Part shown: piece after piece, positions 41,456 through 46,015 of the stretch
Position numbering within the stretch: the stretch's first letter is position 1
How the letters are laid out: each line of letters opens with the position of its first letter
DNA from: Mariprofundus aestuarium
GTDB lineage: Bacteria > Pseudomonadota > Zetaproteobacteria > Mariprofundales > Mariprofundaceae
Direction of reading: 5' to 3'
NCBI RefSeq assembly: GCF_002795805.1
Contig: NZ_CP018799.1
Location: 551,001 to 615,000, forward strand
Length of the DNA: 64,000 bases
Program-made: the position numbers and the translations under genes
Notes under the pieces: model-generated
Told to the model about the DNA's origin: nothing
Database searches by the model: none
Seen by the model: the letters and a program-made list of their open reading frames with translations, nothing else

Positions 41456-41544
41456 GGAAGGGTGACAGAGCTGGCCGAATGTACCGGTCTTGAAAACCGG
41501 CGTAGGGAAACCTACCGTGGGTTCGAATCCCACCCCTTCCGCCA
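41456..41544 (+). tRNA. tRNA-Ser (TGA)
   Basis: 89 bases with a long variable arm, acceptor GGAAGGG/CCCTTCC, anticodon TGA in loop CTTGAAA, encoded CCA. Confidence 0.95.
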
Positions 41545-41604
41545 GTTATTGCTGTGGCGTGCAACAAGTACGTTACATCGATGAGGAAAACAAAATGACC
41601 CAAC

Positions 41605-41694
41605 GGAGAGATGGCTGAGTGGCCGAAAGCGCGCCCCTGCTAAGGGTGTATAGGCTTAAACCTATCGAGGGTTCGAATCCCTCTCTCTCCGCCA
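41605..41694 (+). tRNA. tRNA-Ser (GCT)
   Basis: 90 bases with a long variable arm, acceptor GGAGAGA/TCTCTCC, anticodon GCT in loop CTGCTAA, encoded CCA. Confidence 0.95.
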
Positions 41695-41715
41695 TTTTGT
41701 TTGAGGCGGTTTAAA

Positions 41716-42243
41716 TTGCATCGTACGGCTTTTTCACTGCTGCTTGTTTCCTGCGTGGCCCTGCTTCTTGCAGGCTGTGAGCAGGAGAAGGCGACTCAGA
41801 TTGAGTGGCAAATGCCACTGGAGAAGCCGGAAGATCCGCACGCTGGCCAGAATAGTGAGGCTCTGCCTGAATGGGCTGTGTCGCAAACTGGTCAGGCGGA
41901 GTTGATCTGGCTTGAGAAGGCTACAACGCGTCGCTACTCCACAATTGTGGAAATGGGCGGCACTACAGAGCTTAATGGCTGGGGTATACAGCTGCTGGGT
42001 CTGGCCTCGGGATTGAGAGTTCAAAATAGGACTTTCCTGAACGATGAAAATGTGGATAATCCCGCCGCCTTCGTAGAGGTCAGTCGGGATGGTGAAGTTT
42101 ACTACCGCGGTTGGCTTTATCAGAAATTTCCGGAGTTGTTCGGTATGGACGATCCGGCATGGAAAGTTTGGTTGAAAGGTATTACTCTTCGCCCGCTTTC
42201 GGAAACGAAGGATACAATTGGCTCCCTTAGCTCAGCTGGATAG
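41716..42243 (+). CDS. DUF2155 lipoprotein overlapping tRNA-Arg
   Basis: About 175 aa with a lipoprotein signal ending LLLAGC. The mature part fits DUF2155 (ATTRRYSTIVEMGGTTELNG ... FVEVSRDGEVYYRGWLYQ ... FGMDDPAWKVWLKG). The function of this family is unknown. TTG 41716 has GAGGCGG 7 bases upstream; another TTG at 41701 is also open. The last 7 codons and stop are read from the first 23 bases of tRNA-Arg. The gene starts only 21 bases after tRNA-Ser(GCT), so it is embedded in a tRNA unit and is probably co-transcribed. Confidence 0.8.
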   Translation: MHRTAFSLLLVSCVALLLAGCEQEKATQIEWQMPLEKPEDPHAGQNSEALPEWAVSQTGQAELIWLEKATTRRYSTIVEMGGTTELNGWGIQLLGLASGLRVQNRTFLNDENVDNPAAFVEVSRDGEVYYRGWLYQKFPELFGMDDPAWKVWLKGITLRPLSETKDTIGSLSSAG

Positions 42244-42297
42244 AGCATCTGACTACGAATCAGAAGGCCGGGCGTTCGAATCGCTCAGGGAGCGCCA
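42221..42297 (+). tRNA. tRNA-Arg (ACG)
   Basis: 77 bases, acceptor GCTCCCT/AGGGAGC, anticodon ACG (inosine-modified in most bacteria), encoded CCA. Its 5' part doubles as the 3' coding end of the lipoprotein gene. Confidence 0.95.
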
Positions 42298-42473: not shown

Positions 42474-42788
42474 ATGAAATATTTATTAATGATGTTTGTT
42501 GCTTTGGGTCTGACACTAGTCGGATGTTCTAGCGAAAAAGCGGAAGCACCTGCTCCGGCACCACAGGCTGAAGCACCTGTGGTTGATGAAACAGTGGTCT
42601 CTGAAGAGATCACCAAAGCTGTTGAAGATGCTTCAGCAGCAGTTGAAGAGGTTGCTGCTGATGCCGTCGATGCAGCTGCAGAAGTTGCGGCTGATGCAAC
42701 TGCAGCAGGGGAGGCAATGATGGATGAAGCTGCAGCACCAGCGGCTCCAGCAGCGGCTCCTGAAGTACCAGCAGTGCCAGCCATGTGA
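42474..42788 (+). CDS. Small Ala/Glu/Pro-rich lipoprotein
   Basis: A 104-aa protein with signal MKYLLMMFVALGLTLVGC and a lipidated Cys18. The mature part is low complexity, rich in Ala, Glu, Val and Pro, ending in a Pro-Ala stretch. No enzymatic motif is present. The signal peptide and promoter closely resemble those of the cytochrome gene downstream, so they are tandem relatives. It may act as a spacer or periplasmic linker. The ribosome site is AAGGGGGA, 7 bases before ATG. Confidence 0.8.
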   Translation: MKYLLMMFVALGLTLVGCSSEKAEAPAPAPQAEAPVVDETVVSEEITKAVEDASAAVEEVAADAVDAAAEVAADATAAGEAMMDEAAAPAAPAAAPEVPAVPAM

Positions 42789-42835: not shown

Positions 42836-42871
42836 AATGAGTCCGCATGAAAGTGCGGGCTCATTTTTTTT
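42836..42871 (+). terminator. Terminator between the lipoprotein genes
   Basis: AATGAGTCCGCA pairs with TGCGGGCTCATT, then eight T's. Confidence 0.9.
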
Positions 42872-42941: not shown

Positions 42942-43844
42942 ATGAAATATTTTCTGATCATGTGTATGGCTCTGGGTTTAACGATGACCGGATGCAAGGG
43001 CGAAAAAGAGAAGGCTCCCACGCCTGCGCCTGTCGTTCAGACCGAGGCAGAGGTTGATGCGGTTATTGTAGAAGATGAGGTCACGGTTGTTGAAGAGGTG
43101 GTTGTAGATGATTCTGTTACCACAGCGGAGGTTGTCTCATCCTTAGAGGCAGTAGTCGATGAGCCCGTTGTCGAAGCGGACTCAATGACAGGTGAGGTTG
43201 ATGCAGCAGCGGATAAGGCAGCAGCGGATAAGGCAGCAGCGGATAAGGCAGCAGCGGATAAGGCAGCAGTGGATAAGGCAGCAGCGGATAAGGCAGCAGC
43301 GGATAAGGCAGCAGCGGATAAGGCAGCAGCAGATAAGGCAGCAGCAGATAAGGCAGCAGCAGATAAGGCAGCAGCAGATATGGCAGCAGCAGATAAGGCA
43401 GCAGCAGATAAGGCAGCAGCAGATAAGGCAGCAGCAGATAAGGCAGCAGCAGATAAGGCAGCAGCAGATAAGGCAGCAGCAGATAAGGCAGCAGCAGATA
43501 AGGCAGCAGCAAGCGCTGGAAATGCCACTGCGGGTGCAGGAAAAATTGGTAAGTGCAAGGCGTGCCACAGTTTTGATGCCGGCGGAAGTCATAAGGTTGG
43601 CCCTAACCTGTTTGCTGTTTATGGCAAAAAAGCAGGCAAGGCAGCCGGCTATAATTATGGAAGTGATCTCAAAGGCGCATCATTTATCTGGGATGAAAAG
43701 GCTCTGAGTTTATGGGTCTGTGACTCAAAATCCGCGATCAAAAGCCTGACTGGCAATAGTGGTGCGAAAACCAAGATGACTAAACAGAGTAAATGTGGTG
43801 TCGATGCACAGGATATTGCAGCCTATTTAAAAACCTTAAAGTAA
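42942..43844 (+). CDS. Lipid-anchored cytochrome c with a 20-unit Ala-Asp-Lys repeat tether
   Basis: This 300-aa protein has a lipobox ending MTGC (Cys18), then an acidic low-complexity part rich in Glu, Val and Asp (to about residue 88). Next come 20 copies of the pentad ADKAA (about residues 89-188), and finally a class I cytochrome c domain of about 100 residues. The heme site is CKACH, and [14 protein letters not shown] and TKM (likely Met ligand) follow. Two further Cys lie in LWVCDS and SKCGV. It presumably carries electrons in the periplasm while bound to a membrane. The repeat would form a long helix reaching across the periplasm. The partner is unknown. Confidence 0.88.
43206..43505 (+). 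repeat. 20 x 15-bp tandem repeat within the cytochrome gene
   Basis: Units read GCA GCR GAT AAG GCA. Units 1-8 use GCG and 9-20 use GCA at the second codon. Unit 5 has GTG (Val) and unit 12 has ATG in place of AAG (Met). It is in frame and likely variable in copy number. Confidence 0.95.
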
Positions 43845-43914: not shown

Positions 43915-45183
43915 TTATTCGGCGGGTTGGACTTTGTTGAGGCGAACACGCTGAATCCAGTCGCCACGCAGACTGAGAACCTCAACCTGAACATCGGCGA
44001 TAATAAGGCAGAGTCTGCCTTCAGGGATATCACCAAGGATCTGAACAATCAGACCTCCAATGGTAATTGCACCATCTTCAGGAAGGTCGGTGTCCATGGC
44101 CTGATTGATGTCATGCAAGGCAACCGTTGCTGCAGTCACCATAGCCCCGTCCGGCTGCGGCCACATATCCAGTTGTGGCGGAACATCCGATTCGTCATGG
44201 ATTTCACCGACAATCTCTTCAATGATATCTTCGAGCGTTACCAGCCCTTCAATGTCTCCGAACTCATCAACGACAACGGCCATATGCTGATGGTTGGTCT
44301 GAAAGTCGAATAGCTGGGCGAGAGCATTCTTGCTTGCCGGAATGTAGGAGGGGGTTTTCCAGATGAGTGAGTCGGAAAGCTTCTTGGTGTGGTCTTTGAG
44401 CTTCAGTAGATCGCGCAGGTGAACAATGCCGATCAGATTGTCCTGGTCGTTGAGGAAGACGGGATAACGGGAGTGAGGTGCGTTGGCGACTTTGCGCAGG
44501 GTTTTGCTGACGCTTAAGGAGCCATCCAGCAGATGGATGTTCGGACGCGGTGTCATCAATGCTTTTACCGCCACCTCATGAAGGGTGAGGCTATTGTTGA
44601 GCATCTGCTCCCGTGTCTGATCAAGCACGCCGGATTCGGCACTAATTCCGATCAGGCTGGCCAGCTCTTTGTGTGTCAGTGGGCTGTTCTCTTTTGCGGG
44701 CACCCGAAGGAGGCGTTTCAGCAAGACAATGATCGCATTCAGTACCTTAACCAGCGGCCCCAGAATCGTCTGGGTCAGGCTCATCAGTCCGGCAACCCGG
44801 CAGGCAATGGCTTCGGCATGAGCTACAGCGATGGTTTTGGGGAGGATTTCAGCGAATATCAATACAATTACGGTCATAACAACCGTGGCGTAGAGAATTC
44901 CAGCTTCACCGAATTCGGCAACAAAGAGTGCAGTGGCAAGTGCGGAAGCGGCAATATTAACGAAGTTATTGCCAAGCAAAATGGTGGAGAGCATGCGTTC
45001 CGGATGGTCAAGCAGTGCTTCAGCCTTTTTTGCTCCCTCATCACCCTGTTCCTGGCGCACGCGTAGTTTCGCCCGCCTGGCGCGGGTCAGTGCGGTTTCA
45101 GAACCGGAAAAGAATGCCGAGAGAAGCAGCAGGAAGACCAGAATTCCAACTGCAAACGAAAGTGATATGTCTGCGATAGCCAT
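43915..45183 (-). CDS. CNNM/CBS-domain membrane protein (CorC/YfjD-type)
   Basis: At 422 aa it has a DUF21 membrane part (about residues 1-180) with FFSGSETALTRARRAKL. Paired CBS domains follow (ALMTPRPNIHLLDG ... VVDEFGDIEGLVTLEDIIEE), then a CorC_HlyC domain to the end. Family members are linked to magnesium or cobalt efflux and resistance; old hemolysin names are misleading. Its stop is close to the terminator shared with the cytochrome gene. It lies 10 bases downstream of the YpjD gene and is probably co-transcribed with it. Confidence 0.9.
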   Translation of the reverse strand: MAIADISLSFAVGILVFLLLLSAFFSGSETALTRARRAKLRVRQEQGDEGAKKAEALLDHPERMLSTILLGNNFVNIAASALATALFVAEFGEAGILYATVVMTVIVLIFAEILPKTIAVAHAEAIACRVAGLMSLTQTILGPLVKVLNAIIVLLKRLLRVPAKENSPLTHKELASLIGISAESGVLDQTREQMLNNSLTLHEVAVKALMTPRPNIHLLDGSLSVSKTLRKVANAPHSRYPVFLNDQDNLIGIVHLRDLLKLKDHTKKLSDSLIWKTPSYIPASKNALAQLFDFQTNHQHMAVVVDEFGDIEGLVTLEDIIEEIVGEIHDESDVPPQLDMWPQPDGAMVTAATVALHDINQAMDTDLPEDGAITIGGLIVQILGDIPEGRLCLIIADVQVEVLSLRGDWIQRVRLNKVQPAE

Positions 45184-45193
45184 TATTGAGAGA

Positions 45194-46015
45194 TCAGTTA
45201 ATCCAGGAGTTGATCAGTTTGACGCCGAAATAGGCCAGGATAAACAGTACATACGCAGTTAAAACTGCGCGGCTGGCAATCCTTGTTGGCCAACTGGCCT
45301 GATTGCGCTTGATCAGCAGGATGATAAGGACGGCCAGGGTGAAAACAGCGAGAAGAACCTTGTGGCTGAACAGCGCAAAATGCTGGTACTGCACCCACTG
45401 CCAGAGCAGCCCGGTTATGATGCTGACAGCGATCAAGCCAGTTGCCACCTTGACCTGTGCAATCATGTGGCGTTCGATCTCAACCAGTGAGGGTAGTGCC
45501 TGAATCAGTTTGAAAGAGTGTTTTTTCTTCAGTGCCCGATCGAGCAGGATCTGCATTAGCGCATGGATGGCTGCCAGTGTCAGCACGGCATAAGAGATCA
45601 ATGCGAGAAGCAGGTGACCTGTTTGCAATAGTGATGAGGTGTGTACCCAATTCGGAGCATGGGCCTCTGGAAGGATGGGGGTGAGAAGAAGCGGGATGGC
45701 GGTCAGCGGCAGAAGAAACAGCCCAAGCCCCTGAATGCCATGACGAAGAATGCCGAACGTATAAACCACCTGTACAATAAGTGTGAATACAGCCGTACTG
45801 GTGGCCAATGTGAAGTTAATACCTTCAGTTGTAACCGACTCAAGCAGGTGAATGGCCCAGACATTTGTTCCAATGGCAACGGCCATGAGGCTGGCAATTG
45901 TGCTCGCAATATTTGTATTTTTATGGTCATGGGGTTGTTTTGCATCACGCCAGAGCAAAGCAGCACCGATCAGAGTGATCAGGGCTGCGGCAAAAAACAG
46001 AATCGATGACGTCAT
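45194..46015 (-). CDS. ypjD: CcsA/YpjD-type membrane protein
   Basis: A 273-aa protein with eight hydrophobic segments, matching the YpjD group of the cytochrome c assembly (CcsA/CcmC) superfamily. SLLQTGHLLLALISYAVLTL and LLWQWVQY with FSHKVLLAV provide candidate heme-ligand histidines and tryptophans. The full WWD motif is not obvious, so a role in heme handling is only a family-level suggestion. E. coli YpjD is likewise next to YfjD, the same neighbour as here. Confidence 0.8.
   Translation of the reverse strand: MTSSILFFAAALITLIGAALLWRDAKQPHDHKNTNIASTIASLMAVAIGTNVWAIHLLESVTTEGINFTLATSTAVFTLIVQVVYTFGILRHGIQGLGLFLLPLTAIPLLLTPILPEAHAPNWVHTSSLLQTGHLLLALISYAVLTLAAIHALMQILLDRALKKKHSFKLIQALPSLVEIERHMIAQVKVATGLIAVSIITGLLWQWVQYQHFALFSHKVLLAVFTLAVLIILLIKRNQASWPTRIASRAVLTAYVLFILAYFGVKLINSWIN

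Follow-up and report, generated by a model that had tools for sequence, protein, structure and literature searches.

In Rhodobacter, cytochrome cy is the example of a tethered class I cytochrome that functions as an electron carrier, the length of its linker being of importance (PMC7876108). Linker length also sets the reach of lipoproteins within the periplasm, as described for RcsF (PMC5736177) and Pal (PMC12826056), and the chemistry of the TolA and TonB spacers, helical or proline-rich, varies between species (PMC12204202). In neutrophilic iron oxidisers, soluble carriers are usually assumed to connect Cyc2 with the inner-membrane oxidases. In what PMC5513912 relates of strains CP-5 and CP-8, at least in its portion on electron carriers, both strains are without cyc1, a soluble 127-residue cytochrome is the proposed Cyc2-to-aa3 carrier, and the tethered protein described below is not mentioned.

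The window analysed here, the whole stretch of 64,000 nucleotides from Mariprofundus aestuarium CP-5 (G000), contains at 42942-43844, on the forward strand, an open reading frame for 300 amino acids with the layout of a lipoprotein followed by a repeat tether and a cytochrome c domain. According to the reading that we prefer, to which a probability of about 0.6 is given, its product would be a lipid-anchored, periplasmic monohaem cytochrome c on an extended spacer, acting as a one-electron carrier by tethered diffusion. The features of the locus are the following:

42474..42788, forward strand: haemless lipoprotein of 104 amino acids with a related signal peptide and start (match within its own genome, E 1.8e-5)
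42836..42865, forward strand: terminator-like hairpin in the interval between the haemless lipoprotein and cytochrome genes (consensus match only)
42942..43844, forward strand: whole gene of the lipoprotein with repeat tether and cytochrome c domain (open reading frame; syntenic orthologues in four other genomes)
42942..42995, forward strand: signal peptide and lipobox MTGC (from the sequence; position and Cys invariant in relatives)
42993-42995, forward strand: codon of Cys18, the predicted acylation site, with Lys at +2 (from the sequence)
42996..43208, forward strand: acidic, Val-rich linker preceding the repeat, residues 19-89 (sequence, charge and AF2 coil)
43209..43508, forward strand: spacer of 20 pentads, residues 90-189 (TRF array, unit codon table and AF2 helix)
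43509..43553, forward strand: hinge with Ala, Ser and Gly joining the repeat to the haem domain, residues 190-204 (sequence; AF2 helix end at residue 191)
43554..43841, forward strand: class I cytochrome c domain (Pfam PF00034 over cut-off; PDB 2c2c, E 6e-17; invariant residues)
43554-43568, forward strand: CKACH haem motif (alignment)
43719-43721, forward strand: extra Cys260 (alignment)
43776-43778, forward strand: Met279, candidate sixth ligand (alignment)
43794-43796, forward strand: extra Cys285 (alignment)
43915..45183, reverse strand: convergent CNNM/CorC-HlyC transporter gene, used as synteny landmark (Pfam)

The N-terminal region of the product shows a signal peptide, a lipobox and an invariant Cys, and this Cys would be acylated. 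The Met at position -3 of the lipobox is atypical, and at the equivalent site IIGC, VAGC, ISGC and LTGC are found in the syntenic orthologues, with the Cys always kept. A transmembrane signal anchor of the cytochrome cy type was discarded, the lipobox occupying the place of an uncleaved anchor. When the haem domain is isolated, it scores 25.7 bits against PF00034 (cut-off, 21.3), while the repeat brings the whole protein under this cut-off. Among solved structures, the domain is best matched by cytochrome c2 (PDB 2c2c, with the E value given above), whose Met ligand aligns with Met279, the candidate for this role here. CXXCH, Met279, Cys260 and Cys285 are invariant in the alignment of six group 1 sequences. 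Haem c would be attached to the CKACH domain; the two additional cysteines possibly form a disulfide. AF2, supplied with an alignment of only these six sequences, returned low pLDDT values and no usable cytochrome fold. Cyc1, a c4-type dihaem carrier, was ruled out as an identity for this protein, in which there is a single CXXCH. The match to the histone H1-like profile HC2 (PF07382, 45 bits) is confined to the repeat and was considered an artefact of composition, an identity also contradicted by the export of the protein, by the net charge of 0 of the repeat and by the matches of other Ala/Lys repeats to the same model; the matches to Extensin and TolA-type profiles are artefacts of the same kind.

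Between the lipobox Cys and CXXCH there are 186 residues, made up of an acidic coil and the 20 pentads. The linker that opens this tether has a net charge of -16 over its first 68 residues, with a modelled helicity near zero, and in the AF2 model the product is coil until about residue 78. The pentads correspond to the sole array found by TRF within the 64 kb window (43203-43511, period 15, 20.6 copies), whose 98% matches and score of 548 indicate that it is not due to chance. Read in frame with the codon table, residues 90-189 comprise 18 ADKAA units, one VDKAA and one ADMAA. Thus, the (ADKAA)20 repeat described in the first-pass annotation has been confirmed, with two of its twenty units substituted, in what is predicted to be a lipid-anchored cytochrome c.

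Taking 13 arrays together, 146 synonymous and 22 non-synonymous differences from the unit consensus were counted, where synonymous sites are 3.67 of the 15 per unit and the counts of units within an array are not independent because of duplication; when only distinct types of change are considered, the numbers are 34 and 14, and the direction is unchanged. This excess of synonymous differences indicates conservation of the repeat in its amino-acid sequence. The synonymous changes in the G000 array are arranged in two near-pure DNA blocks, GCG first and then GCA, which is read as the sign of a recent expansion of the array. Such blocks are what would be expected if the array were a by-product of replication slippage, a tolerated filler without a role of its own, and this idea also fits the variation in copy number and the presence of ADKAA arrays in many unrelated bacterial and archaeal proteins. 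However, the predominance of synonymous differences speaks against it, as do the persistence of a long tether where its sequence has been replaced and the separate appearance of the repeat in two unrelated lipoprotein cytochromes and in Pal, so that we regard mere slippage as very unlikely.

The CNNM/CorC-HlyC gene has a close match (69-84% identity) in all the other genomes of the genus except G054 and G055, and the cytochrome gene adjoins it in only five of the genomes of the genus (G000, G044, G050, G051 and G046), although the contig ends at this landmark in a few others. G044 corresponds to Mariprofundus ferrinatatus CP-8. The haem domains of the four orthologues are 73-77% identical to that of the window (BLAST). 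The tether, from Cys to CXXCH, measures 186 residues in G000, 185 in G044, 157 in G050, 191 in G051 and 133 in G046. Exact ADKAA pentads number 18 in G000 (of its 20 pentads), 19 in G044, 14 in G051 and 8 in G050. The G046 tether has none, being rich in Pro, Ala, Val and Glu and free of repeats. With orthologues at one locus carrying from 8 to 19 exact pentads or a Pro-rich tether, it can be stated that the anchor, the long tether and the haem are conserved, and that the chemistry of the tether is not. It had been suggested that the array would span some 15 nm, close to the reach across a periplasm. A ruler of this length matched to the periplasm is not supported, taking into account the 133-191 residues found at the locus, the Pro-rich form and the relatives that use (AP)n or other repeats. 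In G000 and G044 there is no ccoN match over cut-off, as PMC5513912 says of CP-5 and CP-8 in the part of its account cited above. The presence of group 1 as a result of the loss of cbb3 was ruled out, G046, G050 and G051 having ccoN over cut-off and still carrying group 1. A search for cyc1 in the neighbourhoods of cbb3 genes found only Cco-type haem proteins.

With regard to the conformation of the tether, in the AF2 model a single helix takes up the 113 residues from 79 to 191, with block pLDDT values of about 89-98 over most of the array, from an alignment of 6 sequences. It has to be considered that AF2 readily draws helices for Ala-rich repeats, and that Asp is a poor helix former. A full helix, at 1.5 A per residue, would extend about 15 nm over the array and about 17 nm over residues 79-191. 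In a Lifson-Roig helix-coil estimate, made with approximate parameters, the helicity of (ADKAA)20 was 0.72-0.81 at 0 C, and at 25 C it fell to 0.16 when no pair energy was included and to 0.35 when this energy was weak. A value of 0.77 at 25 C was reached for a sequence whose pairs were given a strong energy, and (EAAAK)20 treated with this strong energy reached 0.87. Naturally occurring single alpha-helices are rich in E, K and R, whereas the ADKAA tether is 60% Ala, and the preferred orientation of Lys/acid pairs is disputed (PMC5347031). A strict salt-bridge argument, in either direction, was dropped on account of this dispute. Of the ideal i/i+4 salt bridges that had been claimed for the repeat, the Lys-Asp spacing is right; the claim is weakened by the single pair per pentad, by the helix propensity and the disputed orientation just mentioned, and by a helicity at 25 C of only about 0.16 to 0.8, depending on the pair energy assumed. 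According to the helix-coil estimate, the helix would probably be no more than marginal at the temperatures of growth, its stability at 10-30 C being doubtful, and the tether is taken as a fluctuating, extended spacer that would be semi-rigid at most.

The haemless lipoprotein upstream is similar to the cytochrome lipoproteins of G050 and G051 in their N-terminal part and has a counterpart in G044 (L042:7040-7444). The hairpin that separates it from the cytochrome gene makes it probable that both are separate transcription units. Just upstream of this pair lie 3 tRNA genes (window 41456-42294), and an integrase-like gene (L045:934-2256) lies upstream of the cytochrome orthologue in G046. The locus may be an insertion site. 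Two genes away from the cytochrome, beside the CNNM/CorC gene, there is a Cytochrom_C_asm (CcsA/CcmC-like) gene (window 45194-46015, reverse strand). The pairing of CNNM/CorC with Cytochrom_C_asm is known elsewhere, and this neighbour is probably not specific to the tethered cytochrome. No identifiable redox operon was found in the gene neighbourhoods around the open reading frame or around the other tethered cytochromes. The search for partners through the neighbourhoods of group 1, 2 and 3 cytochromes was set aside as uninformative, the neighbours being mostly housekeeping genes (RpoB/RpoC, Lgt/BacA, POR and DXP synthase, among others), and plasmid relatives of the tethered cytochrome were not found.

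Among the homologues fetched, 26 are lipoprotein cytochromes with tethers of 102-263 residues (median, 185.5). In Mariprofundaceae these tethers may consist of (ADKAA)n, (AP)n, Ala-rich 11-mers (as in L052) or long non-repeat helices, and that of L050 is rich in Lys, Thr and Ala. The lipoprotein cytochrome L046:5556-6386 of G043 stands on a long (AP)n dipeptide tether. In group 2 the tether is a non-repetitive helical region, drawn by AF2 as a helix at 62-183 with moderate confidence. Tethered forms appear in several groups of a tree of 45 haem domains, in which this label requires four changes, at least two of them forced by starred branches. Thus, the tethered design belongs to no fewer than two distinct cytochrome groups. 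Of the 23 genomes of the genus, 11 possess the group 2 spacer and six possess group 1, with no overlap (hypergeometric chance of about 0.009, a naive calculation by hand that ignores kinship). Soluble cytochromes of the same family coexist with tethered ones in the same genomes; in G000, L002 is a 127-residue open frame with 50% identity to the haem domain of the window, and is probably the soluble 127-residue cytochrome in the CP-5 account of PMC5513912. By analogy, this coexistence suggests a division of labour similar to that between soluble c2 and anchored cy in Rhodobacter. Other extended haem proteins were also observed. L009:3554-4876 (own genome, reverse strand) has 440 amino acids, with a signal-like N-terminus and Ig-like/HYR domains ahead of a cytochrome c domain that groups with L061 in the tree, which is another way to hold haem at a distance. 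L047:1641-3338 of G043, a member of the cytochrome c1 family with 565 amino acids, is extended at its N-terminus by a long region containing an SH3 domain.

That many genomes of Mariprofundaceae share this architecture, which extends over two or more separate cytochrome groups and, as described below, returns in an unrelated Ghiorsea cytochrome, supports the lipid-anchored, tethered electron carrier that the first-pass annotation had put forward. It could be argued that the anchor only prevents the cytochrome from leaving the cell or the vicinity of one membrane, the tether clearing the membrane or the peptidoglycan, with no traffic between membranes. Lipid anchors used for retention are common, the length of the tether is variable, and Pal of Ghiorsea uses its repeat only to reach the peptidoglycan. 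Nevertheless, tethers of 102-263 residues seem to exceed what clearance needs, compared with 32 in RcsF (PMC5736177), and length has been kept while sequence turns over, which leaves simple retention as an unlikely explanation, although the least improbable of the alternatives considered.

The spacer is also found outside this family of cytochromes. The degenerate pattern (A[DE]KAA)3 was detected in 12 of 74 family genomes, and its reversed control in none of the 74. The other hosts of the A[DE]KAA repeat, apart from those of Ghiorsea described below, are exported proteins, namely an FkpA-like lipoprotein, VWA-domain proteins and an SH3/CotH protein. The FkpA-like lipoprotein (L012:5533-6561 in the own genome; also L058:5963-6877 in G044) adjoins a PPIase-type lipoprotein (L012:4670-5467), of which it keeps only the N-terminal part, the remainder being replaced by about 40 AEKAA pentads. 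The VWA-domain exported protein (L011:4751-7627 in the own genome, up to 958 amino acids; relatives L105 and L108-L111) carries hundreds of A[DE]KAA-repeat residues ahead of its C-terminal domain. ADKAA arrays occur, in addition, in many unrelated proteins of bacteria and archaea. In two proteins of Candidatus Nitrosopelagicus (L223:5730-6749 and L251:4938-5870), an N-terminal hydrophobic anchor and an (ADKAA)n spacer are followed by what looks like a plastocyanin-like blue-copper domain; that is, in these Archaea the spacer stands directly beside a putative redox domain.

In a second genus, recognised as Ghiorsea through proteins identical to those of named records, the ADKAA tether is present in an unrelated lipoprotein cytochrome and in Pal. 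The cytochrome has ADKAA in G024, G025, G026 and G028 and K/P/V-rich tethers in G018, G023, G032 and G033, and soluble paralogues of its haem domain, of 117 residues, coexist with it. A conserved motif, VVAPLxQGKGxI(K/R)SEP, precedes two different haem domains on the Ghiorsea lipoprotein tethers (L139-L141 and L130-L137), which points to a docking site in common or to shuffling of domains. Pal, a lipoprotein of the outer membrane, faces the periplasm; in one Ghiorsea genome its spacer is (ADKAA)7, whereas others have (AMEKA)n or (GVNGS)n instead. The presence of an ADKAA spacer in this periplasmic protein points to the use of such spacers for reach within the periplasm, where a flexible Gly-rich one could replace them. 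Pal, with this periplasmic work, argues against a surface-exposed lipoprotein whose tether would reach outwards to minerals or to a neighbouring cell. Such an arrangement would agree with the fact that iron oxidation begins outside the cell and with PgcA of Geobacter, an extracellular cytochrome whose haem domains are carried by repeat tethers (PMC11520253), yet the sequence of the open reading frame showed no surface-export signal, and Laz, a lipid-anchored redox protein, is not surface exposed (PMC6277709). Thus, exposure at the surface is considered very unlikely.

Returning to the periplasmic carrier, the tether is most likely, judging from the sequences compared, an interchangeable spacer that would let the haem swing between partners in the periplasm. 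In E. coli, sorting of lipoproteins follows the "+2" rule. The window's protein has Lys at +2, Asp is found there in none of the 26 lipoprotein cytochromes, and LolA was found by Pfam search, while LolB was not found by the Pfam profiles. The absence of Asp and the parallel with Pal favour an outer-membrane anchor, and the lack of a LolB match counts against it. Acylated at Cys18, the lipoprotein would then probably be held in the inner leaflet of the outer membrane, and its haem domain would shuttle single electrons by tethered diffusion from an outer-membrane donor to inner-membrane acceptors. Cyc2 as the donor and the aa3 oxidase or bc1 as acceptors are guesses based on physiology. The pentad array would be a genetically cheap spacer, whose exact chemistry and length would not be critical because relatives have Pro-rich, (AP)n or other helical tethers.

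A broader proposal, which we hold as tentative and rather doubtful, is that outer-membrane-anchored haems swinging across the periplasm on interchangeable rod tethers replace the soluble Cyc1 and form part of the flow from Fe(II) to oxygen in Zetaproteobacteria. ADKAA-tethered cytochromes occur in CP-5, CP-8 and Ghiorsea, lineages that are without cyc1 in what PMC5513912 and PMC7029218 report of them; this correlation is taken from those papers and covers CP-5, CP-8 and Ghiorsea. The same tentative proposal includes a separate origin of the spacer and redox-domain design in the thaumarchaeal blue-copper proteins. If many of these bacteria used tethered haems, electron transfer would become a question of reach and local concentration. 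The natural exchanges between (ADKAA)n, (AP)n, Pro-rich and helical tethers offer a ready-made series on the requirements of periplasmic spacers.

Among the known systems, Laz of Neisseria has a low-complexity pentapeptide linker, much shorter than the tether described here. It resembles the window's protein in being a lipoprotein one-electron carrier, and differs from it in being a copper protein rather than a cytochrome (PMC6277709). Cytochrome cy shares a class I domain of about 100 residues, a long linker and the company of a soluble c2, but its anchor is a transmembrane helix in the inner membrane, its linker has 69 residues and its partners, from bc1 to the oxidase, are known (PMC7876108). 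PgcA of Geobacter sulfurreducens also carries haem domains on low-complexity repeats, and its tethered diffusion has been shown experimentally, although it has three haems joined by (PT)x linkers and is extracellular and mineral-reducing (PMC11520253). Domain II of TolA and TonB, Pal and RcsF have in common with the tether their long periplasmic spacers, helical, Pro-rich or disordered, whose length affects function (PMC12204202, PMC12826056, PMC5736177), but they serve force transduction, peptidoglycan binding or signalling and not electron transfer, and no homology of these spacer proteins to the cytochrome domain was found. L002, which belongs to the same family and genome, has neither lipobox nor tether. 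In sum, tethered carriers are of a known kind, and what is new is that, across a family of iron oxidisers, a lipid anchor is combined with repeat tethers that are very long and interchangeable.
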